Source of the DNA: a virus
Virus record (IMG/VR): IMGVR_UViG_3300010300_000120
Location: 1-22,926 of that record
Length of the DNA stretch: 22,926 nucleotides
Reading direction: 5' to 3' (one strand)
The notes beneath the pieces are model-generated. The model saw only the letters and a list, made by a program, of their open reading frames with translations. It had not been told where the DNA came from and searched no databases. Shown in pieces: positions 1,597 through 19,500 of this stretch; position 1 is the first letter of the stretch; every line of letters begins with the position of its first letter. A program made the position numbers and the translations under genes.

Positions 1597-2331
1597 ATGG
1601 CACTAGAGTTTCCCAGCGATAGAAGAACGTATGAAGGCGTCATACGATTTACAATTATTCGGACCAATACAGATGGAAGCGAGTCAGATGGAGAAACCTG
1701 TGACTTGTATTTGCCTGTCGGTGTTCAAATAGCAGACCGAGTAGAATATGAAAATATTGGATTGGGTGCACTTGGACTTCTGGCCGGAGAAGGCGGCACA
1801 AACGTAGATTTCGCGCCATCAGATGTTGTACAAGATCAGCAAACTAGAGGATTAATTCTTAGTGAAATTACTAAAAAATTCAGCGATAGAGCAGGTGCGG
1901 TAGCAAGAGCAAGAACTAAAACTGCTCCAAACCCAAATACACGTGCATTATTTAAACAAGTAAGTCTACGTTCTTTTCAATTTTCTTTTAAATTTATTCC
2001 GACTAGTGAATCAGAAGCAAATACAATACCGCAAATTATTAGATTTTTTAGGACCGAAATGTATCCACTTAGCATAGCAGGTGGCGAGCAAGGTTCTTTA
2101 GGATACAAATTCCCAAATAAATTTAAAATACAATTTTTCTATGACAACATAGAACTTGCTACTAAAATTGCCCCTGCATACCTAGAAGCATTTGTTACAA
2201 ACTATAACCCAACACAACAAGCATTCTTTAAATCAGGAAATGGTAATCCACATTTCTCAGAAACTGATATTAATATGACATTAACTGAAGCGCAGGCATT
2301 GGATCAAGCAAAAATTCTGGAAGGATTCTAA
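1597..2331 (+). CDS. 48: Baseplate tail-tube cap/junction protein, gp48-like
   Basis: A 244-residue protein that would sit at the baseplate-tube junction and nucleate tube polymerisation. It has the pattern of the T4 gp48 tube-cap family: a central NTRALFKQVSLRSFQFSFKF (about residues 113-132) and then a stretch pairing a helix with FFRTEMYP (about 149-156). It is shorter than T4 gp48 (364 residues). T4 has two related proteins, gp48 and gp54; only one is seen here, so assignment to gp48 rather than gp54 is by resemblance and position. The ATG at 1597 has AGGA just upstream (1588-1591) and a TATAAATA late promoter 33 nt upstream. Its stop overlaps the start of gp53 (TAATG). Confidence 0.75.
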   Translation: MALEFPSDRRTYEGVIRFTIIRTNTDGSESDGETCDLYLPVGVQIADRVEYENIGLGALGLLAGEGGTNVDFAPSDVVQDQQTRGLILSEITKKFSDRAGAVARARTKTAPNPNTRALFKQVSLRSFQFSFKFIPTSESEANTIPQIIRFFRTEMYPLSIAGGEQGSLGYKFPNKFKIQFFYDNIELATKIAPAYLEAFVTNYNPTQQAFFKSGNGNPHFSETDINMTLTEAQALDQAKILEGF

Positions 2332-3173
2332 TGAGTACCTATTTCAAAAAGTTTCCAAAAGTCGATTATAAATTTGGAGATGAAGAATCTCCAGTACAAT
2401 TTCAAAATTTATCTGTCTATATTGATATATTGGATCAATTAAAAGAATACTCTTCATTTTATCAAAACTATCAAATACAGAATAACGAGAGACCAGAACA
2501 TATTTCATATAAACTTTATGAAAATGTAAACTATGGTTGGACCTTTTGGTTATTGAACGATCATATTCGTCAACAAGGTTGGCCGTTGAATAACTCACAG
2601 TTGTATACTAAGGCACAACAGTATTATCCAAATGTGGTTGTCAGGTCAAATGGTGTTGCGAGCAATACTACAACAGGAGTAAATAATCCACTAGTGCAAG
2701 CAGCATTCTTAAGAGAAGGCAACTATGTCTGGTTTAATTTAGACAACAAAGTCGGTAAAATTTTAAGAATAGATAATGATTACGGTTTGATCCACGTTGG
2801 TGTGTCAGGCAGACCAACAAACAGCGGAGTTCTTACTGCTATTGATACTGCATCAGCACTAGAGATGATTGCTGGGACAAGATCCACACCCATAGAACAA
2901 AGAGAAACGACATCTATTGTCGAAACATACGATCAATGGGACGCGCCTCACCACTATGTTGATGCTAATGGTGAGTGGATTAAACCAACTTATTCAAGTG
3001 TTGACCCCTATCCTTTTGATTGGACTAGTGTAACAACAGAACAGTCGGTATCATATTTTCAACGATTAAGAGAAGAAAATACAAAATTACGTTCAATCAA
3101 AGTTTTAACCCTTGATACCTTGACAACTGTCATTAATGAATATAATAAACTTCTTATAAACAGAATAGAATAA
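2331..3173 (+). CDS. 53: Baseplate wedge subunit, gp53-like
   Basis: A 280-residue protein of the T4 gp53 family, which clamps wedges together around the baseplate hub. Family marks are the N-terminal YFKKFPKVDYKF (residues 4-15) and the aromatic block around residues 65-90 with YGWTFWLLNDHIRQQGWPL. T4 gp53 is 196 residues; the extra length here is after about residue 110 and contains a small beta-rich insert (VWFNLDNKVGKILRI) and a Trp/Pro-rich segment. The start overlaps the previous stop by one base (TAATG) and the stop overlaps the next start in the same way, so translation is probably coupled. Confidence 0.85.
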   Translation: MSTYFKKFPKVDYKFGDEESPVQFQNLSVYIDILDQLKEYSSFYQNYQIQNNERPEHISYKLYENVNYGWTFWLLNDHIRQQGWPLNNSQLYTKAQQYYPNVVVRSNGVASNTTTGVNNPLVQAAFLREGNYVWFNLDNKVGKILRIDNDYGLIHVGVSGRPTNSGVLTAIDTASALEMIAGTRSTPIEQRETTSIVETYDQWDAPHHYVDANGEWIKPTYSSVDPYPFDWTSVTTEQSVSYFQRLREENTKLRSIKVLTLDTLTTVINEYNKLLINRIE

Positions 3174-4573
3174 TGGCACAAAATCTAGGGCAAGAATTTA
3201 AAATAACCAAAGCAGAAATTACTGCTGAACGGTTAAACAATTCATATGACATGAAGCAAATGATTGGAGAAATTTCTTTCTTTGAAGATCTCCAAAAACC
3301 ATATGTTTCTGCTCAATTAGTCATTATGGATGACGCAGGTGTATTTGATCTTATTAAGATCAAGGGAACTGAGCAGATTGAGATAGTAATTGAAGCAGTT
3401 GAAGATAGTCTTGCTGGAGCAAAATTAGAAATTAAACTCAATATTGTTTCTATTGTCCAAGTTGTGAAAGGAGGCGACAGATCTGAAATTTATCATATGA
3501 ATTGCATATCTCCTCATGCTTATAGAGATCAAGGAATAAAAATTTCTAGGTCATATAAAGGAAAACTAGAAGATATCACAGAAGCAATACTTAAGAATCA
3601 TTTAAATGTTCGGACTGATAGGACATATCTTGGCGGTACTCCCTCGGTGCAACAACCAGTGAAAATTATCACACCATATATTAGTCCTCTAGAATCAGCA
3701 GAATGGTTGGTAGACAGAGCAACGAGCGACATTGGTGCACCATTTTATATTTGGAGCACTTTATACGACCAACAGGAAAATGGCGGCGATGATGTCGTTC
3801 GTATTGGTAATTTAGAATATATGATAAATTCTAAAGAACCGTTCAATGCGGGACTTCCTCTTCTCTACTCATCTGCTCGCGGACAAGAAGTTGCTGGTCA
3901 AGGACTCGCTCAACAAGCAAGGATCGTAAAAGAACTCAGCATTGAAAATATACAAAACCAGTTTAAGGTGATGCAAGAAGGCGCAGTTGGTTCTCTTTTA
4001 AGTAGTTTCGACACCTATACAAGTCAGACATATGAAAGGCACTTTAGTGTTGGAGAACTGCTTCAGAGCATGGAAGACAGAGGAATGCTAAAAGAAGGCA
4101 AGCAAAATGTCTTTGATGATAAACAGAATTTAGAGTATGAAGATGAAATTAAACCTGCGGATCAATGGAATCACAGATATTTAAATACTGTAAGTTCTTT
4201 CGGAACATATCGTTATGATAATAGTTATCATGATGTATTTAATCAAGCGCAGGCACTTAGTAAAATAAAAAGTTCTGCTATGAAGTCTCTTTATAATAAG
4301 AATATGATTACTCTAAAAGTTCCTGGGGTAATATTTTTCGCTCCATTAGCACTGGGAACATCAGGTGCTACTGTTGGTGATATTATTGACATACATTTCA
4401 AAAATACGAATGTAGAGGGAGAGGGAGACGAAGAACTTAATAAAGAACTTTCCGGAACATACTTGATACATATGTGTAGAAATGTATTTACCAGCACTAG
4501 ACATGACGTTATAATTTCCGTCAGCAAAGTTGCTGATTTTGATGGTGCTGTCGCTGCTGGAGACAATCCTTGA
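3173..4573 (+). CDS. 27: Baseplate hub protein, gp27-like
   Basis: A 466-residue protein. The N-terminal half shows the pattern of hub proteins: MIGEISFFEDLQKPYVSAQL, a DDAG turn, an IKGTEQIEI strand, then a YHMNCISPHAYRDQGIKIS strand and KGKLEDITEAILKNHL. This matches the tube-like repeat domains of T4 gp27 (391 residues). gp27 forms the trimeric central torus that joins the tail tube to the gp5 spike. A His- and Tyr-rich region around 340-365 is not in the core pattern. The next gene encodes the gp5-like partner, as in other T4-like phages. It starts by a TAATG overlap with gp53. Similarity to gp27 is by pattern, not alignment, so a divergent hub protein of the same role is possible. Confidence 0.7.
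   Translation: MAQNLGQEFKITKAEITAERLNNSYDMKQMIGEISFFEDLQKPYVSAQLVIMDDAGVFDLIKIKGTEQIEIVIEAVEDSLAGAKLEIKLNIVSIVQVVKGGDRSEIYHMNCISPHAYRDQGIKISRSYKGKLEDITEAILKNHLNVRTDRTYLGGTPSVQQPVKIITPYISPLESAEWLVDRATSDIGAPFYIWSTLYDQQENGGDDVVRIGNLEYMINSKEPFNAGLPLLYSSARGQEVAGQGLAQQARIVKELSIENIQNQFKVMQEGAVGSLLSSFDTYTSQTYERHFSVGELLQSMEDRGMLKEGKQNVFDDKQNLEYEDEIKPADQWNHRYLNTVSSFGTYRYDNSYHDVFNQAQALSKIKSSAMKSLYNKNMITLKVPGVIFFAPLALGTSGATVGDIIDIHFKNTNVEGEGDEELNKELSGTYLIHMCRNVFTSTRHDVIISVSKVADFDGAVAAGDNP
4559..4563 (+). promoter_or_regulatory. Ribosome-binding site deciding a TTG start
   Basis: GGAGA lies six bases before the TTG at 4570. In this frame the nearest upstream stop is at 4540-4542, no ATG or GTG falls between it and 4570, and the next in-frame Met is near residue 96 inside the OB fold. 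The TTG is therefore the only start that keeps the N-terminal domain whole. Confidence 0.6.
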
Positions 4574-5463
4574 AAACGATCAATCACGAATACTACGGTG
4601 ATGATGTCCGGTGGTTTATTGGCACTGCGATCGACAACACTCCTCCTTATGGACTTGAAGGAAGAGTTCAGGTTCGAATTCACGGCATACATTCTGATAA
4701 CGTAAACGATATTCCTCAAAGAGATCTCCCATGGGCGCAGGTTTTAAATCCAGGAAACACGTATGGCGTCTCTGGATTTGGTACATCTGCTCAGATACTT
4801 CCAGGTGCATTAGTGTTTGGATTTTTTCTCGATGGGGTGACTTCTCAATTACCTATGATTATCGGATCAATGCCTAGAATTGAGTTTCCTTCTTCAGTCC
4901 AAGCAAATTTTAGGGACGATCCTGCCAGTAATCCATTTTCATATTATTTTAATCAAACAAACTCTCAAGTTAATGATCCAATATTGACGGTTGCTGCCAA
5001 ACCTGAGGGAGATATTGTAAGATATTTTATAGATAATGGATTCAATGCAAAACAAGCGTGTTCTATTACTGGAGTTCTCAGCGATATTAGTGGATTGGAT
5101 CCAAATAATGTGAGCAATGGCATTGGCATTGCAGGATTACCTCCATTTTCGCCTAGATTGGCGAACTTTTATGCATACGTTGCGAGGTTACAACCTGCAA
5201 AGGCACCAGAAGATATTGAGGGGCAACTTCTTTTCGTTCTTCACGAACTTAGGACTTCTCGTGCATCTGCGTTTTCTAAAATGCTACGAGCAAAAGAAAT
5301 CACTGGGCAATTAAATGGGGAAAAAATAGACGGTATCATAACCAAGGGAAACGGTATGGTAGCTGCTCTTGTTAAATACTATGTTCATCCTTTAACTTCA
5401 ATTTCTCAGTCCGCAGCAGAGGGTAAAGCAGAGTCTCTATTTTCTGGATTGGGAGCAAGATAA
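4570..5463 (+). CDS. 5: Short gp5-like hub protein: OB fold plus degenerate tail-lysozyme-like domain
   Basis: A 297-residue protein. Residues 1-108 match the T4 gp5 N-terminal OB fold (YYGDDVRWFIG, GRVQVRIHGIHS, DLPWAQV, GALVFGFFLDG, QLPMIIGSMPRIEFPS), the part that docks on gp27. Residues 148-275 look like a phage tail lysozyme (Phage_lysozyme2-type) domain: DIVRYFIDNGF, then the ITGVLSDISGLDP stretch at 166-178, a GIAGL turn, and a QLLFVLHEL helix. The usual family motif is GN(x)nESGxxP with a catalytic Glu; here that position is Ile173, so activity is doubtful, although Asp172 is adjacent. The C-terminal beta-helix of T4 gp5 (575 residues) is absent and appears to be encoded at 7942-10299. 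The start is TTG, overlapping the hub stop as TTGA, which may keep its level low. Confidence 0.75.
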   Translation: MKTINHEYYGDDVRWFIGTAIDNTPPYGLEGRVQVRIHGIHSDNVNDIPQRDLPWAQVLNPGNTYGVSGFGTSAQILPGALVFGFFLDGVTSQLPMIIGSMPRIEFPSSVQANFRDDPASNPFSYYFNQTNSQVNDPILTVAAKPEGDIVRYFIDNGFNAKQACSITGVLSDISGLDPNNVSNGIGIAGLPPFSPRLANFYAYVARLQPAKAPEDIEGQLLFVLHELRTSRASAFSKMLRAKEITGQLNGEKIDGIITKGNGMVAALVKYYVHPLTSISQSAAEGKAESLFSGLGAR

Positions 5464-6449
5464 TGGCAAGATTAAATCTTTCGGAACTCAATACCTTTGT
5501 AAACAACTTTTTTGATAAAGTTGGTGTTCGCGATCTTACAGCAATACATGCTGAAAGGATCAAACAATGGTTGATTGAAAACCTTTCAAAAATTGGAAGA
5601 TATGCCACTAGAGATTTTGAGCGATTTGGTACTCTTGAGTCTCACGGGCAGTCTAAGAATGATGGAAGAAAGTTTCATATGGATCGCGCCGATGGTTGGG
5701 TTTCGCTAACAGAAGAAGTTCCTGACCTAGATCATTTTACATATGGAACTGGTATCTTGTGGATACACGGTGAGTTTGAATTACCTGCTTGGTGGGAAGC
5801 ACTAGGAAAAGGTAGAAAAATGGGCGACCATATCTATGGTGATGAGTATGCCCAGACCACATTTGACGGTAAACAAAAACATTTATTTCAAAGAACTACT
5901 GGAGAAACTTACACTTTTTGGTACGAACCTACAACCAAATCAGGGTCACCTGCTGGCGGCACTGATTGGGGAGACCAAGGGTGGGAATATGGTTATCTTT
6001 GGCACGATACTCCAGACGTTACTGCTCAGATAAACCAAGGTACAAAGGTGCCAAAAGACGGAGTTGCAGCTTCAGAGAGTGACGAGATAGCATGGTTTAT
6101 GGAAACTATAACGTATAACACAGGATCAGATATCGTCAAGGAGAAAGCGGATCCTTCGGTGGTCCCTGACACAGAGAACGATGATGATCTGTACCATCTA
6201 GATAACGAAAGAAACCATTATCCATATCGTATTATCCATTCTACTTCTCCCAAGAGCGTTAAGTGGTTGCTTGAAAATATTATTGTTGCTGGAGGAAATG
6301 GTATGTATGATAATAATATTCCTGCTATCGCAACTAGCGTTGGAACTTGGCCGCCAGCAAGCGGGCATAGTTTCGCAAAACAAGGAGTGGATGGAATAGT
6401 CAACTTTATTTCGCCAATAGAAGAAGTTCCGACTTCTGGTAGAGAATAA
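5463..6449 (+). CDS. Uncharacterised 328-residue protein of the hub/spike module
   Basis: Not recognised. It is strongly aromatic, with many Trp in residues 75-210 (for example WIHGEFELPAWWEALG and TDWGDQGWEYGYLWHD), which suggests a compact beta-rich domain that might bind sugar or cell-wall material. Residues 1-60 are predicted-looking helix with heptad character. An acidic linker follows at about 228-247 (contains TENDDDLYHLDNE), then a C-terminal domain of about 80 residues. There is no signal peptide or membrane segment. It sits between the OB/lysozyme-like half and the amidase in a run with one-base TAATG overlaps at both ends, so co-assembly in the central spike or hub is inferred. No T4 counterpart is known to me at this position. 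Confidence 0.7.
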   Translation: MARLNLSELNTFVNNFFDKVGVRDLTAIHAERIKQWLIENLSKIGRYATRDFERFGTLESHGQSKNDGRKFHMDRADGWVSLTEEVPDLDHFTYGTGILWIHGEFELPAWWEALGKGRKMGDHIYGDEYAQTTFDGKQKHLFQRTTGETYTFWYEPTTKSGSPAGGTDWGDQGWEYGYLWHDTPDVTAQINQGTKVPKDGVAASESDEIAWFMETITYNTGSDIVKEKADPSVVPDTENDDDLYHLDNERNHYPYRIIHSTSPKSVKWLLENIIVAGGNGMYDNNIPAIATSVGTWPPASGHSFAKQGVDGIVNFISPIEEVPTSGRE

Positions 6450-7942
6450 TGTCAATAATTGATACTTCAAATTACAATGCCATGATTGCGCAGACTGTCG
6501 CAAATTCAAAGGGCAGAGCATCTGACTTGAAAGTTTTGTCAGGTGGTGTGTTGTCTGACAATCAGGTTTCGCTTATTGAACAGACTGTAAAAAATACAAT
6601 TGATGATGCGATAGGGTTCGAAGTTCCTCAAGAAGTTTACAGTCAGGTCACTGACCTCATGCTCGGCACTTCTCCAGGATTAACTCAACAAAATTTAAAT
6701 TCTATACTCCAGTCAACTGGTGTTATGGGTCAAATAACTAACAAAATCCCTGGCGTCAATATAGGAAATCAACTTTCTTCTATTACAGCACAATATGAGC
6801 AGAAACTTCGTCAAATCACTGGATCTATAGATGGACAGTTGCGTAGTCTTGGACTTCCAGGATTTGCCCAGAATGCAGCAAACAGTGTTATCAATGATGC
6901 TAATAATGTTATTAATAATGTTTTGAAAGGTAATGGAATAACAAACGCTTTTGGTAACCAAGCATCAGTTGGTGGTGCTACTACAAATCTTCTCTCTAAA
7001 GTTATTAGCGGAAATGGATTCGCTAGTCTTGACCAGATTGGATCTAATCTTCCTCCTTCTATAACATCTCTTGCAGATGGTAATGGTATTATTGATCTCG
7101 GCAAATTAACTAAAGCAGATAAAAATTCTCTGACAGGACAAATTTTAAAAAGTGCAACTGGATCTGAAAGTTCAGCGAGAGATCTCGGTTCTCTGGCAGA
7201 TGTGCTTGAGGCGACAATGTTGGGTCTAACTGAAGAAACTGTGTTAGAAGTAGTTGGTCCTGCTCCGTATGAGATTGGATTCCAAGACTTACTTCCTGGA
7301 GGGCAATATATTTCCTCTATTGAAGAACTTGAAGCAGAGATGGGTGGGTTGACTAGAGATATATCTGAGATTATAGTGCATTGGTCAGAAACATTCACTA
7401 ATTCTAATTTAACTGCAAATCAATTGACAACAATTACTGGTTCTGGAGATAATGCATACCACCTTATTGTAAAAAGAGATGGTTCGATTGAAAGAGGAGT
7501 TCCTTTAAACAGCGTTGGGTCTCATTGCCCAGACAATAATCATAATGCATTTTCTATAGGAGTGTGCTTGGTTGGCGGTGTCAACGTTTCAACAGGGACA
7601 ACGGATATCGTACAAACCACATCTCCAAGAAGCATCACACGATCTCAATACAACACTTTGTATCAAATATTTCGAACATTCTTTAATCAATATCCAGGTG
7701 GACAAGCACTAGGGCATATGGACATAGATCCTTCTCAAGAGGATCCAGGGTTTGATGTAAGAGACTATGTGTATAACAATTTCAATAAACAAAGTCTTTA
7801 TAGAGATCCATCAACTGAACCTGCCCTTTCTCCTGATGACATAATTTCTAAACAAGCGGGTCAACAGATTGGGGTAACACCTCAAGATTTAGAATCATTT
7901 GAACTTACAAAAGACCCTGACGTTTTGGAGAAAAACTTTTAA
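6449..7942 (+). CDS. Tail-associated N-acetylmuramoyl-L-alanine amidase (PGRP/T7-lysozyme type) with long N-terminal domain
   Basis: A 497-residue protein. Residues about 305-445 are an Amidase_2/PGRP domain that aligns by eye with T7 lysozyme: IVHWSE (His311), AYHLIVKRDGSIERG (Tyr337), SVGSHC, FSIGVCLVGG, and GHMDIDPSQEDPGFDV (His423, Asp432). Predicted Zn ligands are His311, His423 and Asp432; Asp in place of the T7 Cys is as in AmpD. The Lys two residues before the third ligand in T7 lysozyme (Lys128) is Gln430 here. The enzyme would cut the amide between N-acetylmuramic acid and L-Ala. Residues 1-300 are not recognised: Gln/Asn/Ser-rich, helical, with INDANNVINNVLKG, probably for anchoring in the hub. 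No signal peptide or holin is nearby, and the location in the baseplate run points to a virion-borne enzyme for infection rather than a lysis enzyme. Confidence 0.85.
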   Translation: MSIIDTSNYNAMIAQTVANSKGRASDLKVLSGGVLSDNQVSLIEQTVKNTIDDAIGFEVPQEVYSQVTDLMLGTSPGLTQQNLNSILQSTGVMGQITNKIPGVNIGNQLSSITAQYEQKLRQITGSIDGQLRSLGLPGFAQNAANSVINDANNVINNVLKGNGITNAFGNQASVGGATTNLLSKVISGNGFASLDQIGSNLPPSITSLADGNGIIDLGKLTKADKNSLTGQILKSATGSESSARDLGSLADVLEATMLGLTEETVLEVVGPAPYEIGFQDLLPGGQYISSIEELEAEMGGLTRDISEIIVHWSETFTNSNLTANQLTTITGSGDNAYHLIVKRDGSIERGVPLNSVGSHCPDNNHNAFSIGVCLVGGVNVSTGTTDIVQTTSPRSITRSQYNTLYQIFRTFFNQYPGGQALGHMDIDPSQEDPGFDVRDYVYNNFNKQSLYRDPSTEPALSPDDIISKQAGQQIGVTPQDLESFELTKDPDVLEKNF

Positions 7943-10299
7943 TGACTACAGGAAATAACAAATTAACTGATCGGATTAATGATCCGACAAAGATTAGTCC
8001 AGAACTTACTACTGGTGTTCCAATCGACGGGACTGTAGACCCAACTGGTGAGTACCCGAATCGATACAACTGGTTTCAATCAAATACTAGTGCAGCAAGT
8101 CGCGGTGTTAAAATAAATGATCTTTGGATTGGTGGTAGTACAATGGGTGTCAGTTTTGATGTTCCATTTGGTTCTACTTCTATCTTTCCATTTAATCAAG
8201 CAAATGAGACTCCTTCTGGACACTCATTTGAAATAGACGACACCCCAGGAAATGAGCGCATATTGATAAAGCATCATACTGGTGCTGGTGTAGAACTCAA
8301 GCAGGATGGATCAGTTGCTGTTGTATCTCGAACGCACCAAATACAGGTTGCTGGAGGAGATCACGAACTAGTCGTCGCTGGTCAAGGCAACATCACTTAT
8401 GACGGAGATTTAACTCTGACGGTCAACGGCAACTATAACCTTGTCGTTGGAGGAACATTTAATGTTGATATTGGTGCAAATCATAATCACTCAGTTCATG
8501 GAACATATATTACAGAAACAGGAGACACTCATCAGACTATCGTTCGCGGCAACAAAGACGTGAAAGTCTGGGGAGATCGCCTTGATTATACCTCAAGCGA
8601 ACATAAGATCGTAACCAAAAAAGATGTTCGCATTATTTCTGGAAGAGATATTTTACCGAATGCTAAGAGAGGTATTCGTATATCAGCAGAGGATCATGTA
8701 ACTACTGCCTCTGGTAAGTTTACTACATTGTCTGCACCTGATATGAGGATTATAGGGAACAAAGGTAAAATTGGTGGACCAAATTTTCACTATTTTGGTG
8801 CTCTTTATACAGGAAGTGAAGACGGTCAAGGCAAAGACACTGTGTTCCATGGTAATCTAGTTGGGCGCGCATTAGAAGCATGGACCGCCAAATATTCTAA
8901 ATTTGCAGAACACTCTCATTCTGCCATTGCTGCTGATTGGGCAGAAGAGACAGCGACAGCTGGGGGCACAGGAGCAGTTACCCCTATACCATTTACAGCA
9001 TCACCTATGGATTCAAAACCAAATTACAAGTTTGAATGGGGTTGGACGGCAAAGGATAACCATGTTGTATTTGCTTCTGTTGATAACTGGGGCGATGGTT
9101 GGGTTAATAAAGATCCTGATACTGGATCAGGTCTCATGGCAAATTGGCCAGACGCAGAAAATGCACATGAACCTTTATACGATTACTATGCAAATCCAAC
9201 TAACTGGTGGGAACTTTGGAACAAAGCATCGCCATATGCTGTCCGAAAAGTTTATGTGGATGAAGATGGAGCGATCGAAGCAAAGATTGCAAAAACCGAT
9301 ACTTATAGTCATTATTTTAACTGGACGCCAAAAACTCCAGAAATACGTTCTAAATTGAGAACTATGGATGGTGCTAATGATGCAGCAACATCACCAGAAA
9401 AACAAACTAATGGTCCTCTATGCATAGCATCATTGCTTGACGAGAATCGTCTGTCACCTTTATATTCTACAGAAGCACCAATTCTTCCATATCAAATAAA
9501 AAGGACTGGAACTAGTATTCCTCAAGCAAGATTTGGATATAGTTTATTAGGAAATCCAGTAGAGAGGGCATCAAAATCTTTCTTACCAAAAAATGTTGGT
9601 GCAGTGAATAGAACTATAGTTGCTGACCCTGTGTACAACCCAGATAATCAACGAGCACCTATTAACAGTCAGACTCGTTTATCTAAATCTAGCACGTTGT
9701 CAAAATTCTTTGGTGCTCCTGGATCTAGATCTTCTTTAGACTATGTGCCAACCCTAAAACAAAGACAAGATCTTGCGCGACAATATTATCTTCACGCATG
9801 GTTTATGGAGGGTGTCGCCTCTGCTAAAGAATTTAAGAACTATAGATTACAGGTGACTGAAGGATATTATAATCCCGCCAACGGAATTCGCGAGAAATTT
9901 AACGGAAAGACTGAACCAGCAGAATCATATTACTGGAGAGAACCATATCGTTTAGACGATGGTGGTGGAACTCAGAAATCTATTATTCTTTCTGGAGAAC
10001 CGATCAATCAGTTGAAGTACGAGGGACGAGCAGTAGTCTATACTCTCTACAATACCAGAGGTAAAATTGAGTATCCTGCGACATTTGATTTGGCGCTTTA
10101 CATTCGTGATACGTTTTTCTTTGATCAGTTGAGTCTTGATTATGATATGACTCGCCCAGATAATATAATGACTCAACAATTAATTGTGGTTATGCCAAAA
10201 GTTGACGTAGATTTCAAGGTTACATTTCAACAGAAAGTCAGCACTTACTTCAATCGTAAAACGTTGTCTGGATCTGATTTAATCGAAGTAACCGACTAA
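7942..10299 (+). CDS. Central spike protein: gp5-like beta-helix with large C-terminal region ending in a Hedgehog/M15-like domain
   Basis: A 785-residue protein. Residues about 95-275 carry the repeating short strands of a triple-stranded gp5-type beta-helix (HELVVAGQGNITYDGDLTL, TVNGNYNLVVGGTFNVD, then ITETGDTHQTIVRGNKDVKV). His-x-His pairs occur at 181/183 and 324/326. Unlike T4 gp5, where the helix ends the protein, about 500 residues follow: a Trp-rich region (about 360-445), a Ser/Pro-rich linker (about 540-600), and a C-terminal domain (about 610-765). That last domain contains YRLQVTEGYY (634-643), KYEGRAVVY (692-700) and VVMPKVDVDFKV (749-760), resembling the Hedgehog/M15 peptidase fold (VTEGW..., HYEGRAVDI, AHIHCSV), but with the three metal ligands replaced. 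The protein supplies the needle missing from the gp5-like gene at 4570. The domain call at the C-terminus is from memory of motifs. Confidence 0.75.
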   Translation: MTTGNNKLTDRINDPTKISPELTTGVPIDGTVDPTGEYPNRYNWFQSNTSAASRGVKINDLWIGGSTMGVSFDVPFGSTSIFPFNQANETPSGHSFEIDDTPGNERILIKHHTGAGVELKQDGSVAVVSRTHQIQVAGGDHELVVAGQGNITYDGDLTLTVNGNYNLVVGGTFNVDIGANHNHSVHGTYITETGDTHQTIVRGNKDVKVWGDRLDYTSSEHKIVTKKDVRIISGRDILPNAKRGIRISAEDHVTTASGKFTTLSAPDMRIIGNKGKIGGPNFHYFGALYTGSEDGQGKDTVFHGNLVGRALEAWTAKYSKFAEHSHSAIAADWAEETATAGGTGAVTPIPFTASPMDSKPNYKFEWGWTAKDNHVVFASVDNWGDGWVNKDPDTGSGLMANWPDAENAHEPLYDYYANPTNWWELWNKASPYAVRKVYVDEDGAIEAKIAKTDTYSHYFNWTPKTPEIRSKLRTMDGANDAATSPEKQTNGPLCIASLLDENRLSPLYSTEAPILPYQIKRTGTSIPQARFGYSLLGNPVERASKSFLPKNVGAVNRTIVADPVYNPDNQRAPINSQTRLSKSSTLSKFFGAPGSRSSLDYVPTLKQRQDLARQYYLHAWFMEGVASAKEFKNYRLQVTEGYYNPANGIREKFNGKTEPAESYYWREPYRLDDGGGTQKSIILSGEPINQLKYEGRAVVYTLYNTRGKIEYPATFDLALYIRDTFFFDQLSLDYDMTRPDNIMTQQLIVVMPKVDVDFKVTFQQKVSTYFNRKTLSGSDLIEVTD

Positions 10300-10329: not shown

Positions 10330-10830
10330 ATGGCACTCAAAAGAATAACACCAGGATTAACAGATAAGACTCTTGTCACGAGTAAACAAAAATTTTATTC
10401 TGACATAGATCTTAGTTTTAAAGTAAAATCCGGATCCTTGAATGAGGAGGGCGTTAGGCAGGGAGATGTTTTTAAAAAAACAGACGCTGCAGCAGTAATA
10501 CAATCTGTTGAAACTATATTGTTGACGAACCATTTAGAAAAACCATACCGCCCATTTTTTGGTGCCAATATTAGATCAATGTTATTTGAATTGGATGCAA
10601 ATTATTCTGAATCCACTATCCGAGAACAAATTACAAAAGCAGTAGAAAAAGACGAACCAAGAGCAAAAATAACAGAAGTTAGATTTTATTCTGGTAATGA
10701 ACAGATACCAAGAGGTGCACAAAATATCAGATCATTTGCTGATAATTCTGTTTACATTCAAGTAGAGTTTAGAATACTTAACTCTGAAGAAACATTCACA
10801 GCAGCAGTCAACATGAATAGGTTACGCTAA
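10330..10830 (+). CDS. 25: Baseplate wedge subunit, gp25-like
   Basis: A 166-residue member of the GPW/gp25 family, part of the inner baseplate wedge that binds gp6 and gp53 and helps start the sheath. It shows the core of the family: a helix with AVIQSVETILLTNHLEKPYRP (about 54-75), FFGANIRSMLFE, and the conserved EPR triplet at residues 109-111 followed by ITEVRF. T4 gp25 is 132 residues; the extra length is in the N-terminus and the loop after the EPR motif. It is the first gene after a CTAAATAG motif, with only a weak Shine-Dalgarno sequence, and is followed one base later by gp6, the same order as T4 genes 25-6. Confidence 0.92.
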   Translation: MALKRITPGLTDKTLVTSKQKFYSDIDLSFKVKSGSLNEEGVRQGDVFKKTDAAAVIQSVETILLTNHLEKPYRPFFGANIRSMLFELDANYSESTIREQITKAVEKDEPRAKITEVRFYSGNEQIPRGAQNIRSFADNSVYIQVEFRILNSEETFTAAVNMNRLR

Positions 10831-10831
10831 C

Positions 10832-12754
10832 ATGGCAACTACAATCAAATCGACTGAGTTAGACTTTAATAGTATTAAAGAAAATCTCAAAAATTTCCTA
10901 AAAGAATCAGGGGAATTTAATGACTATGATTTCGAAGGTTCTGGTTTATCTAACCTCCTTGATGTCTTGTCATACAATACACACTATAATGGTCTAATCA
11001 CAAATTTTGCTCTTAATGAATCGTTTCTTAAAACAGCACAACTCAGACCATCTGTTGTTTCCTTAGCAGAATCTATTGGATATGTTCCAAATTCAAGAAA
11101 ATCTTCTGAATGCCAGATTACTTTGACATTGTCTCTCAGCGGTGTGCCTAATCTTCTACAAACACAAACTTTGCAGGCAGGATCATTAGTTTTACGAGGA
11201 AGCAAAGACGGAATTGATTATACATTCACAAATAGAGAATCTATAACTGCATCTGCTTCTTCTGGTGTCTACACATTCGCACCAACTGCTGATCCAGAAC
11301 TTCCTGTAAAAGTTTTTGAAGGAGTTGTCAAGACTGAAAACTTTTTAGTAGGAGCGCAGACAGAAGCAATTTATGTTATACCTGATTTGAATATGGACAT
11401 TCGAACTGCTATAGTTAAAGTTTTTGAGAATCAACTTTCTGCAAATGTTGACGGTGGTAGTGGGTTTACCATTTATACTGACCTAATAGATGCAACGACG
11501 ATCCGAGAGGATTCTAGATTATATGTACTTCAAGAATCTCCTAATGGATATTATGAGTTATCATTTGGTAATGGTAACTCTTTAGGTGTCGCTCCTACTC
11601 CTGGACAAGTGGTTAGTGTTAATTATCTTAGAACCAATGGAAAGGATGCAGACAATATTCCTTCGTTACAACTAGCATCATCAATTATTTTGTCTGATAT
11701 TAACGGATTAGATTATACTGTTGATCCTTCAAATGTTACTTTATCTGTTATTTCAAGATCTAGTGGAGGTGCAGATAAAGAAGGAATAGAATCTATCCGA
11801 CAGAATGCGCCGTTCCAATATGCTTCTCAGAATCGAATGGTTACTGCTAACGATTATTCTGCACTAATACTAAAAAAATATAACACCTTTATTGACGATA
11901 TAAAGTCTTGGGGTGGAGAAGATGATCCAAAACCTGCTTATGGTTCTGTTTTTACTTCTATTGTATTTAAACCTGAATTAAGTAATTCTACTATATCTCA
12001 AGTTCGTCAAGGAATCCTTGACCTCGTAGATGAATATTCTATTGCATCTTTTGATTTGAGGTTTACTGATCCAGAAACAACATATATTGGTACACAAACC
12101 TTTTTTCAATGGAATCGCTCTTTGACTGGATTAAGTGAATCTACTGTTCGAGCAAATGTTTCAAGTGCAATTGATCAATATTTTCTAGAAAATACAGGGA
12201 AGTTTGACCAAGTATTTCGAAGGTCAAATATGTTAACTCGAATAGATGCTGTTGATCCTTCGGTGTTGTCTTCAAGGGCAAATGTTTTTGCACACCAAAG
12301 AATATTTCCGACTTTAACGTTACCTCTAAATTACGATATAACCTTTCCTTTTTCAATTAGACCTGCAACTGATTCATTAGAACCTTCAGTCTATTCTTCT
12401 ATCTTCACATATAAGAACCAGCAATGTTTTATCCGCAATAAAATTAATGAAAGGGTTAAGGTATCTGCAGAAGGTGCTAATCCAGTAATTTTTAATACTA
12501 CACCTTCAAGTACATTAGAGTTGGTGACTGTGGGAGGAAAGGTGTTGGTGAGTAGTATTGGAGAATATTTTTCTCCCACAGGAAGGGTAGTTATAACTAA
12601 CCTTACGATACAATCTATAACAGCTGGTAGAAATTTTGTAAAAATATTTGCTGTTCCTGCAAATCAATCTGTAGTTGAAGCGAAACTTAATACGATTATC
12701 AAATACGATCCAGAAGAGTCTTTCGTACAAACAGTCGCGGTAGATACAAGGTAA
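10832..12754 (+). CDS. 6: Baseplate wedge subunit, gp6-like (baseplate J-like)
   Basis: A 640-residue protein close to the length of T4 gp6 (660 residues), whose dimers form the inner ring of the baseplate. The N-terminus has the family pattern: STELDFNSIKENLKNFLK, then YDFEGSGLSNLLDVLSYN, THYNGLITNFALNESFLKTA, and RPSVVSLAESIGYVP (about residues 7-92). Two mid-protein marks are YYELSFGNGNSLGVAP and QNRMVTANDYSALILKKY, the latter typical of baseplate J/gp6 proteins. The C-terminal 150 residues are beta-rich. ATG is at 10832, one base after the gp25 stop. It is followed four bases after its stop by the next gene. Confidence 0.92.
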   Translation: MATTIKSTELDFNSIKENLKNFLKESGEFNDYDFEGSGLSNLLDVLSYNTHYNGLITNFALNESFLKTAQLRPSVVSLAESIGYVPNSRKSSECQITLTLSLSGVPNLLQTQTLQAGSLVLRGSKDGIDYTFTNRESITASASSGVYTFAPTADPELPVKVFEGVVKTENFLVGAQTEAIYVIPDLNMDIRTAIVKVFENQLSANVDGGSGFTIYTDLIDATTIREDSRLYVLQESPNGYYELSFGNGNSLGVAPTPGQVVSVNYLRTNGKDADNIPSLQLASSIILSDINGLDYTVDPSNVTLSVISRSSGGADKEGIESIRQNAPFQYASQNRMVTANDYSALILKKYNTFIDDIKSWGGEDDPKPAYGSVFTSIVFKPELSNSTISQVRQGILDLVDEYSIASFDLRFTDPETTYIGTQTFFQWNRSLTGLSESTVRANVSSAIDQYFLENTGKFDQVFRRSNMLTRIDAVDPSVLSSRANVFAHQRIFPTLTLPLNYDITFPFSIRPATDSLEPSVYSSIFTYKNQQCFIRNKINERVKVSAEGANPVIFNTTPSSTLELVTVGGKVLVSSIGEYFSPTGRVVITNLTIQSITAGRNFVKIFAVPANQSVVEAKLNTIIKYDPEESFVQTVAVDTR

Positions 12755-14160: not shown

Positions 14161-14970
14161 ATGGCAACAAAAACCCGAGAGGTATTACAAAACGGCACTA
14201 TTGCGAACGATGGGACTGGCGATACCCTGCGTGATGCTGCAGATAAAATTAATACAAATTTTACCTATGTGTGGAATCGACTTGGCGGTAAGGACTCTTA
14301 TTTTACTGACAATCTGACTGCTGATAGTGACGGAAATCTTATTTTCACTAATGGAGTCTACAATAGCACATTTGGAACTTCAACGCTCTCTGGTAATCGT
14401 GATATAGACTTGCCTAATGCATCTGGAACTGTAGTATTAAAAACTACAACAGACGTGTTAACAAATAAAACTCTCACAACTCCTGTTATAAGTACGGTTC
14501 ATGATAGTAATGGAAACACAGTATTAAATTTAGATGGTGTCTCTTCTAGTGCTAATTATGTCAATATCACTAACGGAGATTCTAGTACTGCTCCTGTAAT
14601 AAAAATTGATGGAGATTCTGCTGATGTTGATCTTCATATACAAGCAAAGAATAATGGATATATAAAATTCCAATCTCCAGTGGTCTTAAACACGCAGACT
14701 ATAACCACTAATGGCGCCGCATCAACAACTATTGTGACGACTTTTTGTAACAAGTCCAGTGCTCTAGCATTGACTCTGGCAAACGGAAGTAATTTGGGAG
14801 ACCAGAAAACTTTTGTAAATATAAACACAGGAAATGCTACTATTACTCCTGCTACTTTTGCGTCAGGCACTTCAATTACTGTCGCGCAAGGACATGCAGT
14901 GAGTTTAGTTTGGCATACCACTGGATGGGTTGCAGTTGGCATCTCATCTGGAATAACGCTTACACCATAA
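14161..14970 (+). CDS. Baseplate/tail fibre-like structural protein
   Basis: A 269-residue protein. Residues about 6-36 (REVLQNGTIANDG, then TGDTLRDAADKINTNF) are a motif seen at the start of many phage fibre and baseplate-attached proteins. The middle is Thr/Ser/Asn/Asp-rich with short beta repeats (DLPNASGTVVLKTTTDVLTN, then KTLTTPVI), a typical fibre-shaft composition. The C-terminal 80 residues (GDQKTFVNINTGNATITP and VSLVWHTTGWVAVG) look like a small beta module common in marine phage structural proteins. It lies between the wedge genes and gp8, so attachment to the outer baseplate is inferred. No T4 gene number can be given. A late promoter lies 28 nt upstream. Confidence 0.65.
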   Translation: MATKTREVLQNGTIANDGTGDTLRDAADKINTNFTYVWNRLGGKDSYFTDNLTADSDGNLIFTNGVYNSTFGTSTLSGNRDIDLPNASGTVVLKTTTDVLTNKTLTTPVISTVHDSNGNTVLNLDGVSSSANYVNITNGDSSTAPVIKIDGDSADVDLHIQAKNNGYIKFQSPVVLNTQTITTNGAASTTIVTTFCNKSSALALTLANGSNLGDQKTFVNINTGNATITPATFASGTSITVAQGHAVSLVWHTTGWVAVGISSGITLTP

Positions 14971-14973
14971 GAG

Positions 14974-14979
14974 TAGGGA
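14974..14979 (+). promoter_or_regulatory. Ribosome-binding site deciding the gp8 start
   Basis: TAGGGA ends two bases before the ATG at 14982. A longer frame could begin at 14910, but that would overlap the previous gene by 61 bases and add 24 residues (rich in Trp and His) unlike the start of a gp8 protein. Confidence 0.6.
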
Positions 14980-14981
14980 CA

Positions 14982-16493
14982 ATGGCAACTACAGTAACTG
15001 ATATTACAAAAAGGATCCTTTTAGAACAACTTTTTTCATCTACACAAAATATCGGAGTTTCTCCTGGTGACTCAGATCGATATTATTTGGGTATCGGTAG
15101 AGCAGAAGAATGGGATTCGGATAACGCTCCTCCTGTTCCAAATTCTGGAGTAAATGAGCAATTAAGGTTCCAAGAGTCTCTACAATCTATCCAAATTATT
15201 AATAATATAAGTTATGTTGTTCCAAGGTATAACTGGACTGCTGGTAATGTCTATTCAGCATGGAGTAATGACTATGGTTCAGACCTTGGATTTATCAGTA
15301 GTAGCACCAGAATAGAACACCCATATTATGTTATAACTGATGATCTACAGGTGTTCGTTTGTATACAACAAGGAAAGACAGCACAAGGTGTTTCTCGTAA
15401 CTCTTTATACAAACCAACTGATACTTCTGGAGTTCCTTTTGCAGCAGGTGATGATGGATATATTTGGCAATTTTTATTTGCGGTCGACGCAAATCGAGCA
15501 AGAAATTTTTTGACCTCCTCTTATATTCCAGTTGAGAAAATACTTGACTCGAGTGAAGGCGGTCCTCTTGCATCAGACTTATCTGTTGCAAGAACACAAC
15601 AACTTGCTCTACAAAAAGCAGCAAAAACAGGACAGATTCTGGGTGTTGCCGTTGATTCAGGTGGTACTGGATACACTTCTGCCCCGACTGTTACAATAAC
15701 TCCTATTCCACGTATTGGTTCTACAACTATTGTAGAAGCAGCACAAGCAATCGCAAATGTCAATAGTAATGGACAAGTTTACGAAATAGTTATGAAAGAT
15801 TCTGCGAATGCACCGTATTTTACTTTTGGAGAAGGGTATAAACATGCCCATGTTTCTGTTACTGGCGGTGGTGGATCCGGAGCAGTATTGAGACCGCTTA
15901 TCACTTTTGATTCAGGATTACAAGGAAATCATATCTCTAGTTTGAGTTCTTCTGGAATCATGTTTTCAAATACATTAACTGGTAATGTTTCTGGAGACTT
16001 TAATGTAGTAAACGATTTCAGACAGATAGGTATTATCAAGAATCCACTTAAAGACTCCGCTGATTTTGGATCTTTTACTGGCGTTATCGGTGATTCTGCT
16101 GTATCTTCTGCTACAGCACAAGCATACCATAAACTTTATGTTTCTGGTTCTGCTGGATTTGCTGCCAATATCACAGGAGACCAAACGTTGCAGCAAAGCA
16201 CGTCTGGCGCAAAAGCAATTTTAGATTACTTTGATGCGGCAAATGAAATAGCGTATGTTCACCAAACCAGAGTAACAGGTTTTACTGCTTTTGACTCAAC
16301 CAATAATATTTCTTTTCTACAGTCTGGTTCCTCGATTGGAACATGTGCAATAGTAGCAAATACAACTGGTCCTAATTTGCGTCCAGCAGAAGTGAATAAT
16401 TTTTCTGGAGAGGTTATATACATAGATAACAGATCTCCAATTACTCGTGACGACGAACAAACAGAAGATATTAAGATCGTCATAGACCTGTAA
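14982..16493 (+). CDS. 8: Baseplate wedge subunit, gp8-like
   Basis: A 503-residue protein. The N-terminal pattern is that of gp8-type wedge proteins: ITKRILLEQLFSSTQN, DSDRYYLGIGRAEEW, then YNWTAGNVYSAWSNDY, YYVITDDLQVFVCIQQG, and DDGYIWQFLFAVDANRARNF (residues about 7-185). gp8 dimers form the outer part of the T4 wedge. T4 gp8 is 334 residues; the extra part here is a beta-rich C-terminus starting with GGTGYTSAPTVTITPIP (about residue 226), a repeat type found in phage structural proteins. The start was put at 14982 by its Shine-Dalgarno sequence and by lack of overlap with the upstream gene. The following gene starts 12 bases downstream behind a strong GGAAGG. Confidence 0.88.
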   Translation: MATTVTDITKRILLEQLFSSTQNIGVSPGDSDRYYLGIGRAEEWDSDNAPPVPNSGVNEQLRFQESLQSIQIINNISYVVPRYNWTAGNVYSAWSNDYGSDLGFISSSTRIEHPYYVITDDLQVFVCIQQGKTAQGVSRNSLYKPTDTSGVPFAAGDDGYIWQFLFAVDANRARNFLTSSYIPVEKILDSSEGGPLASDLSVARTQQLALQKAAKTGQILGVAVDSGGTGYTSAPTVTITPIPRIGSTTIVEAAQAIANVNSNGQVYEIVMKDSANAPYFTFGEGYKHAHVSVTGGGGSGAVLRPLITFDSGLQGNHISSLSSSGIMFSNTLTGNVSGDFNVVNDFRQIGIIKNPLKDSADFGSFTGVIGDSAVSSATAQAYHKLYVSGSAGFAANITGDQTLQQSTSGAKAILDYFDAANEIAYVHQTRVTGFTAFDSTNNISFLQSGSSIGTCAIVANTTGPNLRPAEVNNFSGEVIYIDNRSPITRDDEQTEDIKIVIDL

Positions 16494-16505: not shown

Positions 16506-19500
16506 ATGCCACAGCAGTTCAACGCATCTACGTTTGCATCAACATACAAGGACGATTTTCTTGATAGTGCGGGATACCACAAAGTTTTATTTAACAGTGG
16601 TCGAGCATTGCAAGCAAGAGAACTTACTCAACTACAGACTATCCTGCAGACTCAGATAACTCGTTTTGCTAGAAATATATTTTTAGACGGAGCAGCAGTT
16701 AATCCAAAAAGTTCTGGTGCTGGTGTTTCTAACATGCAGTACGTTATCCTTGAGGATTTGCCCAATGATGCAGATTTGTATCCTGGAACAACTTGGACAG
16801 GTAGCGCAAAAACTGGGACAGGCGGTCTTAAGTTTGTTATCCAACACGTAGAACAAGCAAGTGGCGGTGATTTTCCTACTATTTACGGAAGATACATTGA
16901 TGCAGGGCAGAGTGGTACGTCAACAGATGTTCAAACGGACTATCTTACGTTTGATGAAGCAGAAGTTCTAACCTCGCCTGGACTTGGTGACATAACAGTT
17001 AGAACCAAACTTCCAGGAGAACCTGATGTTACGGGAGAGGGCACCTTATTTTATTTACAGGGTGCTGATTTTTTTGTGCAAGGGCACTTTGTATTTGCAC
17101 CAAAACAACAGATCGCTATAGCAAAATATACTCCGTTTGCTGATGCAGATGTTGGTTTTGAAGTAGTACAGGATATTGTAACGGTTGCTGACGATGAGGC
17201 ATTGTATGATAACCAAGGTGCTCGTCCTAACCTTTCCTCTCCTGGTGCTGATCGATACCGTATTCGTTTGTTACTAACAACTAGAAGTTCTATTGCAAAT
17301 GAATTAGATTTTCTTCCATTTGCAACAGTTCGTGACGGTATTATTATTCAAATTAAAGAGGGCACTGATAGTTTCAATCAAGTCGAAAAGAGATTGGCAA
17401 GAAGGCAACAAGAAACTACAGGACGCTTTGTTGTTAATCCTTTTGAAATTGAAATTAATGAAAAAGATTCTGCAACTCTCACTTATATAATTCCTGGGAA
17501 AAATCAATTTGGACAGAATCCATTAGCATATTTGGACGGATATAGACTAGAGCATCAAATTCCTGCTGAGATTGATGTTGCAAAACCTGTTTCATTCACT
17601 GCTGATTCAGGTATGCTCACACCAATTTCATATAAAAATTATGTATCAGTAAGAGCAGATTCAGCAGGTGCATCTTTCTTGGGTGCTTATGCTGGCGGTG
17701 ACATGGATGCTCAGAAAAAGCATCGCCTCAGTAAAGCAGATGGAACTATTTTGGGTGATGCTAGAATTAAAAGCATTAGAAATACTGGATTTGCTGATTC
17801 AGACAGATATAGAATTCACCTTTATGATATCAGAATGTTGTCCGGACAGAACTTTAGAAATGTGAACTTCATAGGAGAACATGATTCTGCGACTGGTAAA
17901 GGAATAAGAGTCCACCAAGAAGATAATCAGACATATGTTGTTGATCCAAACAACAATACTTCTTTATTTGAAATTCCAGGGTATAGAACAAAAGCAGTGA
18001 GCGACGTTCGATACACTGTTCAACGGCAATTTAATGCAACTACAAACGGTTCTGGTGTCCTTAGCATCAATACTGGTAACGATGAGAATTTTTCTGATGA
18101 GGGTCAATGGACTTTTATAAACCTTGACACTGACACAGTTGATGAGATCGCAGCAGGTTCTATCACAATCACTGGTGGTTCTGGTGGATCTCCCGCAAAT
18201 GCTTCAATTGCTACGACTGGTGGCGCTTCAGCAAACTATGTTGTATATGCTTATGTAGAAAAGGGACTTGGTGCAGGCGGTCTTGCTGCTAAAACAAAGA
18301 CTTATCGTGAAGACTGGTTCACAGCAACTAGAGTTAACGACTCTGTGGGCGATAGATTTTTATTTACCTTGAAAGGTGGAACTGCACTGAGTAACATGTA
18401 TGACGGCGTTGAACTATTAGAGGCATATGATTCCGACTCTACTGGTCCAAGTGTTAAGTTTAGTTTAGAATTTGATGGTGGACAAAGAGACAATTACTAT
18501 GGTCCTGCTAATCTTATTCCAGCTGGTGTCAGTTCAACAACTACAACAGTTAGAGCAAAAGTAGGATACTTTGAGTGGGGTGCTTCCGGACATTATTTTT
18601 CTGCGAATTCCTACAACCTAGCAGATTCAACTTGGTTTGATTACGGTGATATTCCAACTTATGTTTCAAAGACAACAGGAACATCATACGCTCTGCATAA
18701 CTACTTTGACTTCCGCTCAAAACTAGATCCATTGAGCGATACCATGGCGACGACTAACTGGTTTGAGGTTCCTAGAGATGGAGATCAAATCTCTCATGGT
18801 GTACAATACTATAATCAAAGGATAGATTCAATTGTTCTCTCATATAACGCAGAAAAACTTCTGCCAGTTATTCGAGTTAATCAAGGCGTAGAGCATGTCC
18901 AACCAACTGTTCCTTCAGAAAGACCAAATGAGATGGTTCTTTACAGCACTATGCTCGGCGGTAATACTAAAAATGTCGGCGATATAGACATTCGAAGAAA
19001 CCGATATCCAAGATTCACAATGAGAGACATTGATGATCTTCGTGCTCGAGTTGAGAGAGTAGAGGAAACCGTCGCGTTATCGTTTATTGAGCAAGAAGCA
19101 CAAAATCTAGTTGAAGTTAATAGTTCTGGTCAAGTAAGATCAAAAACAGGATTTTTTGTAGATGATTTTACAAAGGGTCTGGCAATGACTGCTTCTGTTG
19201 TTGGTCCAACTTTTATTGACGATGCTACTTTTATAACTCAAACTTTAGACGCCAGGATATCGACTGTTCAACCTAAATCTACATCAGAATGGGTAGAACT
19301 ATTATACGATTCAGATAATCTTTATAGTGCTCGTGCTGGAGGAGCAAACAGCAACATTGTCCGCAAGGGCGATTTGTTGATGCTAGATTACACTGAAGTT
19401 CTAGATTCAACTTTGTCACAACCAGTTATTTCTTGGTTGTCTGATGGTAGAAGTTATGAGGAACGCGGTTATTACAACGTCAACCCATTTAATGTCTTCA

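Follow-up and report, generated by a model that had tools for sequence, protein, structure and literature searches.

Among phage puncturing devices, T4 gp5 is the textbook case; it also serves as the model for the spikes of type VI secretion systems. We analysed a 22.9-kb virus contig with a T4-like baseplate operon (IMG/VR record IMGVR_UViG_3300010300_000120, positions 1 to 22,926). The whole stretch is called the window below. The window probably encodes a T4-like central spike whose gp5 is made as separate chains. Briefly, the N-terminal chain (4570..5463, + strand) has 297 residues, begins at a TTG codon, and carries an oligonucleotide/oligosaccharide-binding (OB) fold and a tail-lysozyme-like domain. 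The C-terminal chain (7942..10299, + strand) has 785 residues and comprises a linker, a beta-helix needle and an extra C-terminal domain. Genes for a 328-residue protein (5463..6449, + strand) and a 497-residue amidase protein (6449..7942, + strand) lie between these two halves. A first-pass annotation of the window had proposed this gene run at these coordinates, and both were confirmed. A split gp5 is undescribed in the open-access literature that we searched, a scope that excludes most subscription journals. In pelagimyophages, gp5 has been described as divergent, with nothing more on a split (PMC7029224).

gp5 is encoded as separate OB and needle chains

The N-terminal chain was identified by Pfam, PHROG and T4 gp5 profiles. 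It matched the Pfam family Gp5_OB at 29.4 bits, above the cut-off of 25, and Phage_lysozyme2 (PF18013) at 31.7 bits (cut-off 28.2); relatives scored 34–37 bits for the latter. Matches to the gp5 PHROGs 430, 1922 and 694 ranged from 4e-23 to 1e-22. A profile comparison with T4 gp5 structures (6e-10) placed residues 8–98 on T4 residues 3–97. The OB domain takes up approximately residues 1–115 (4570..4914, + strand), with the Gp5_OB match at 44–114. The lysozyme-like domain follows at 4987..5349 (+ strand) and could be aligned with phi29 gp13 and with gp5 of Ochrobactrum phage vB_OspM_OC (phage OC).

The 785-residue protein matched a different part of gp5. It aligned with positions 334–475 of the phrog_430 profile (1.7e-19) and, by profile, with T4 gp5 residues 387–520 (2e-9). 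The triple-beta-helix-type needle spans approximately residues 82–290 (8185..8811, + strand). Gp5_trimer_C was found in 14 of 14 relatives and fell under its cut-off in the window's needle protein. No OB fold was detectable in the 785-residue protein, which had no Pfam match to such a domain, and the 4570–5463 protein is related to gp5 by profile. The proposal that OB fold and lysozyme-like domain are encoded apart from the beta-helix is therefore upheld. The description of the 785-residue protein as a beta-helix was right for the needle but incomplete. The protein also carries a C-terminal domain (approximately residues 599–760; 9736..10221, + strand), which is a separate gene of about 200 codons in most sister-clade contigs.

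A second, short profile match places needle-chain residues 28–42 (8023..8067, + strand; the DPTGEYPNR region, motif GxxDPTGEYPxR) on T4 gp5 residues 111–125, the linker after the OB fold. The needle chain opens with the motif GFSDPTGQYPRR, which in T4 forms the linker behind the OB fold. As judged from these alignments, the OB linker is now on the needle side of the gene break. In three of 12 long relative contigs the Pfam Gp5_OB match was itself split, with its front in the OB gene and positions 62–119 in the needle gene. These 12 contigs (42–154 kb) contained no other OB gene of gp5 kind and no second needle.

Phage OC gp5 has the order OB, M15, Phage_lysozyme2, linker (GFQDPTNSLPYNEYRG) and needle, and is colinear with the split form. 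Hence, the simplest origin would be a stop and start between the lysozyme and linker of an OC-like gp5. The split would then have been widened by genes between the halves.

The split may instead merely encode the mature state of T4 gp5 (gp5* plus gp5C), with no functional consequence. The first-pass annotation described T4 gp5 as one chain. This holds for the gene, but the mature protein consists of two chains after cleavage at Ser351/Ala352, between lysozyme and beta-helix, and these chains stay in complex (PMC3004832). The gene break in the window falls between the same two domains. However, it leaves T4's OB–lysozyme linker on the needle side, extra genes separate the halves, and parts have degenerated or acquired domains independently of one another (see below). 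We regard a purely organisational variant as a serious but less probable explanation than a gp5 divided into parts with separate histories.

The split arrangement recurs in mostly marine T4-like phages

Relatives were collected by IMG/VR searches and gene architecture was compared among the contigs returned. About 100 contigs, from different samples and at 35–100% identity, have the split arrangement. The contigs represent a large T4-like phage group that is mostly marine. The gene set and its order, hub, OB/lysozyme, (328-residue protein), amidase and needle, were seen again both in the window's own clade (OB chains about 50% identical or more; tens of contigs) and among sister contigs (dozens). 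The start position of the OB chain is also kept across relatives.

The two clades differ in detail. The window's own clade has the order OB/lysozyme, 328-residue protein, amidase, needle. The sister clade lacks the gene for the 328-residue protein and has a longer amidase protein. The needle is there encoded by two genes, one of about 480 codons (needle) and one of about 200 codons that equals the end domain of the window's 785-residue protein. Either the window's protein is a fusion or the sister-clade genes arose by fission. The amidase occurs in nearly the whole split group. The view that two new genes had been inserted thus needs revision: the 328-residue protein is new to the window's subclade, but the amidase is not.

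Cultured relatives have a fused gp5. It is a single chain in cyanophages and P-SSM2, and a short OB plus needle in phages HTVC008M and C48C1. A megablast search with the whole window found no near phage.

The genes of the run do overlap, as had been claimed, but "fully overlapping" overstates junctions of only 1–4 nucleotides. The hub and OB-chain genes overlap by four nucleotides (TTGA, containing the TTG start). The genes for the OB chain, the 328-residue protein and the amidase each share one nucleotide with the next gene (TAATG). Since the window is a metagenomic contig without an isolate, we considered whether sequencing, a frameshift or contig assembly had produced the split. We rejected such an artefact as practically impossible: separate starts, junctions of 1–4 nucleotides and whole genes between the halves are found in about 100 contigs of different samples.

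Lysozyme and amidase active sites are lost in alternation

In the lysozyme-like domain, residue 173 (codon 5086–5088) is Ile where phi29 gp13 has Glu45. The aligned site reads LSDISGLDP in the window, MQSESTINP in phi29 gp13 and IKQESGFNS in phage OC. It is occupied by I, V or A in all 15 close relatives. Among 107 distinct sequences, Glu was absent from 70 and kept in 37. We read this column from a MAFFT alignment; an alignment based on a hidden Markov model misplaces the site in the clade of contig L126. Catalysis by gp13 has been proposed to depend on Glu45, and mutation has shown that its equivalent in a GH184 muramidase, Glu41, is essential (PMC10394673). Because the catalytic Glu has been lost, the lysozyme-like domain of the window is probably dead. 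The first-pass annotation was correct about the family but passed over the missing residue. Annotation as "tail lysozyme" can therefore misname the active enzyme of these phages.

The amidase presents a different picture. The 6449–7942 protein matched Amidase_2 at 49.4 bits (Pfam cut-off 26) and the T7 lysozyme profile at 5.6e-13. A variable N-terminal part precedes the catalytic Amidase_2 domain, which is C-terminal (about 7355–7762, + strand). Amidases of the T7 lysozyme type hold zinc with two His plus Cys/Asp. In the first sets of amidases, all 67 aligned sequences have the zinc ligands H311, H423 and D432.

We then scored distinct sequences in which both active sites were readable (n = 94; the amidase of contig L180 was judged by eye). 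The lysozyme site was lost and the amidase intact in 63, both were intact in 14, and the lysozyme was intact and the amidase lost in 17. None had lost both. The amidase zinc triad was intact in 63 of 63 scorable sequences lacking the lysozyme Glu. At least one intact active site is present in every contig scorable for both.

Amidase loss is found in two places. The L126–L152 clade retains the lysozyme Glu and has substitutions at the amidase ligands, with H/H/D becoming G/D/G in most members. The corresponding segments of L126 are VIGWTAK versus IVHWSET, FGDYEYD versus LGHMDID, and GPGIDV versus DPGFDV. L180, elsewhere on the tree, likewise keeps the lysozyme Glu and has a broken amidase (EIIVNFIPV). 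Both sites are kept in a basal group (L117, L122, L125 and L153–L172), most members of which also have the equivalent of T7 Lys128. On a tree built from OB and needle columns, parsimony required about two changes at the Glu site and about two in the amidase. This pattern would suit a device with two wall-cutting enzymes that are redundant, so that either one is free to decay; the events being so few, it is suggestive but short of statistical proof. The prediction that parts of the spike evolve separately is borne out by these comparisons.

Could the amidase and the 328-residue protein lie outside the spike, with the amidase a co-transcribed endolysin or assembly enzyme? T7 lysozyme and other phage Amidase_2 proteins act in lysis, and the window's amidase is known from genes alone. 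However, the amidase gene lies between the two halves of gp5 in tens of divergent contigs, and a long variable N-terminal part precedes its catalytic domain. In Vibrio phage VP-1, Amidase_2 is fused into gp5 itself. Furthermore, amidase decay alternates with that of the spike lysozyme, and a version without zinc ligands has been retained in the L126 clade. An endolysin is thus improbable, and we favour an amidase that belongs to the spike.

The 328-residue protein and further candidate wall-cutting domains

The first-pass annotation had placed an unknown protein and an amidase between the gp5 halves, and this was confirmed. Searches of Pfam, PHROGs, the PDB and the genomes of cultured phages gave no match for the 328-residue protein, and its homologues are confined to the window's clade. 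AlphaFold2 returned no usable fold (predicted local distance difference test, pLDDT, 34). In relatives, the protein has 272–590 residues, with a conserved N-terminal part and a C-terminus that is variable and sometimes duplicated or extended. This variability suggests an exposed accessory protein. Tentatively, it could be an accessory spike or baseplate protein with an expandable C-terminus. One relative (L010:5208-8414) has the gene as a tandem duplicate, of 590 and 469 codons, with C-terminal extensions on both copies. Another (L011) has an extra 457-codon gene at 7106-8479 without a Pfam match.

The C-terminal domain of the needle chain may have an M15/Hedgehog (LAS)-like fold without zinc ligands. 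The AlphaFold2 model of the needle C-terminus had a pLDDT of 45.6 overall, and its last 180 residues were better. With this low-confidence model, VIA gave Z 7.4 over 103 residues to Hedgehog domains, although values below 8 are not decisive. The first 20 VIA rows all belonged to the M15/Hedgehog fold group (Z 4.8–7.4), and the next, unrelated row had Z 4.6. Foldseek on the PDB ranked M15 endolysins first, at E 0.12. A BFVD structure search with the domain returned nothing, Pfam and profile searches gave no support for the fold, and a profile comparison with two phage M15 domains did not rise above reversed sequences. His-Asp-His zinc ligands were absent from all relatives at positions judged by structural analogy to this tentative fold.

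Other needle-associated proteins have acquired enzyme-like domains. In L060 (11725-13062), the stand-alone counterpart of the needle C-terminal domain is fused to a SleB-type Hydrolase_2 domain (PF07486; 37.6 bits, cut-off 27). The L180 needle protein (5299-7818) has an extra M15-type domain (SxHxxGxAxD; SQHWTGQAIDI) after the usual C-terminal domain. Separately, two needle proteins (L153:8627-11113 and L155:8630-11155) end in an extra domain of about 160 residues with no Pfam match.

Genomic context

The spike genes are embedded in the baseplate operon. Upstream are a tail tube cap-like gene (1597-2331), a gp53-like gene (2331-3173) and the gene for the 466-residue gp27-like baseplate hub protein (3173..4573, + strand; phrog_350 tail protein, 8.5e-39), whose position is kept in relatives. 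The spike gene run ends with the gp25 sheath initiator (10330..10830, + strand; GPW_gp25, 38.8 bits). Next are gp6 (10832-12754) and further wedge proteins. A gp4-like head closure protein (1042-1551, − strand; phrog_218, 5e-53) is encoded on the opposite strand at the operon start. For the open reading frame of a baseplate wedge subunit (14910-16493; phrog_438), the TTG start as listed gives a 61-nucleotide overlap with the preceding gene. Alignments with relatives begin near residue 24, which makes a true start further downstream probable. The 1911-residue protein at 16506-22241 has matches among large, functionally uncharacterised PHROGs (phrog_358, 4e-234). It occupies the place of the VrlC protein in HTVC008M and is possibly its counterpart.

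Proposed mechanism and comparison with known systems

We infer assembly, stoichiometry, amidase location and enzyme activity from sequence. The gp27-like hub would seat the OB chain. Starting at the former OB–needle linker, the needle chain probably forms a trimer that attaches beneath the OB trimer without a covalent bond. This would resemble T4, whose gp5* and gp5C stay associated once gp5 is cleaved, in a (gp27-gp5*-gp5C)3 assembly. A position on or at the spike is probable for the amidase, which would cut peptidoglycan as the phage enters. In the window's lineage, the amidase would be the cutter, and the lysozyme-like domain is probably a structural or wall-binding remnant.

A broader interpretation, which we hold to be about as likely as not, is that gp5 serves as a multi-chain platform. 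Wall-cutting domains (lysozyme, amidase, possibly M15-type and SleB-type) would be added, fused, split off and left to decay separately. At least one working site would always be kept, and dead domains would persist as structural or wall-binding parts. Several observations weigh against the spike mechanism of the preceding paragraph and the alternating enzyme loss. The events are few (two plus two) and some deep branches are only moderately supported (0.75–0.95). In the lysozyme-like domain, E226 is invariant and some members have D/E at −1 from the lost Glu, so the domain may retain some lysozyme activity. Window residue 430 matches Lys128 of T7 lysozyme, which we take to be a functional position. 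It is Gln in the window, Gln or variable in the clade, and Lys in some relatives only, which makes amidase activity uncertain. Finally, the presence of the amidase and the 328-residue protein in the particle is itself deduced.

A spike built from separate genes with alternating enzyme loss indicates that covalent linkage is not required. Lineages with both enzymes intact, and those with one, provide comparisons for which wall bond must be cut at entry.

Known systems resemble parts of this device. The N-terminal tail lysozyme of phi29 gp13 (3CT5) belongs to the same PF18013-type family as the window's lysozyme-like part, but has Glu45 in place of Ile173. Pelagibacter phage HTVC008M and phage C48C1 (Kyanoviridae records) are also T4-like, with hub, OB, needle, gp25 and gp6 in the region. 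However, their gp5 proteins are unsplit, with a short fused OB and needle (350 and 196 residues, respectively). These genes (L046:22847-23899 and L047:8839-9429) are annotated "baseplate hub subunit and tail lysozyme". Only OB and short needle were matched in either protein, and the profile used found no lysozyme domain. Vibrio phage VP-1 gp5 (AWY10192.1) likewise combines a gp5-type OB fold and beta-helix with Amidase_2. Unlike in the window, Amidase_2 is fused into the chain and there is no separate needle gene. Phage OC gp5 (QIG65729.1) shares the order OB, PF18013 lysozyme, DPT linker and needle, but is a single 808-residue chain with an extra M15 peptidase and an intact lysozyme Glu (KQES).

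T4 gp5 itself (1K28, 5IV5) has an OB fold beside a gp27-type hub, a lysozyme-type domain, the linker motif and a triple-beta-helix needle, and its mature form is also two chains. The T4 protein, in contrast, is the product of one gene, has a GH24 lysozyme and is cleaved after synthesis. In the window, the genes are separate, the lysozyme-like domain is of PF18013 type and lacks the catalytic Glu, and the two halves have genes for an amidase and a protein without matches between them. The kind of device, a T4-type central spike, is therefore known; what is new is a gp5 made by several genes with alternating decay of its enzymes.

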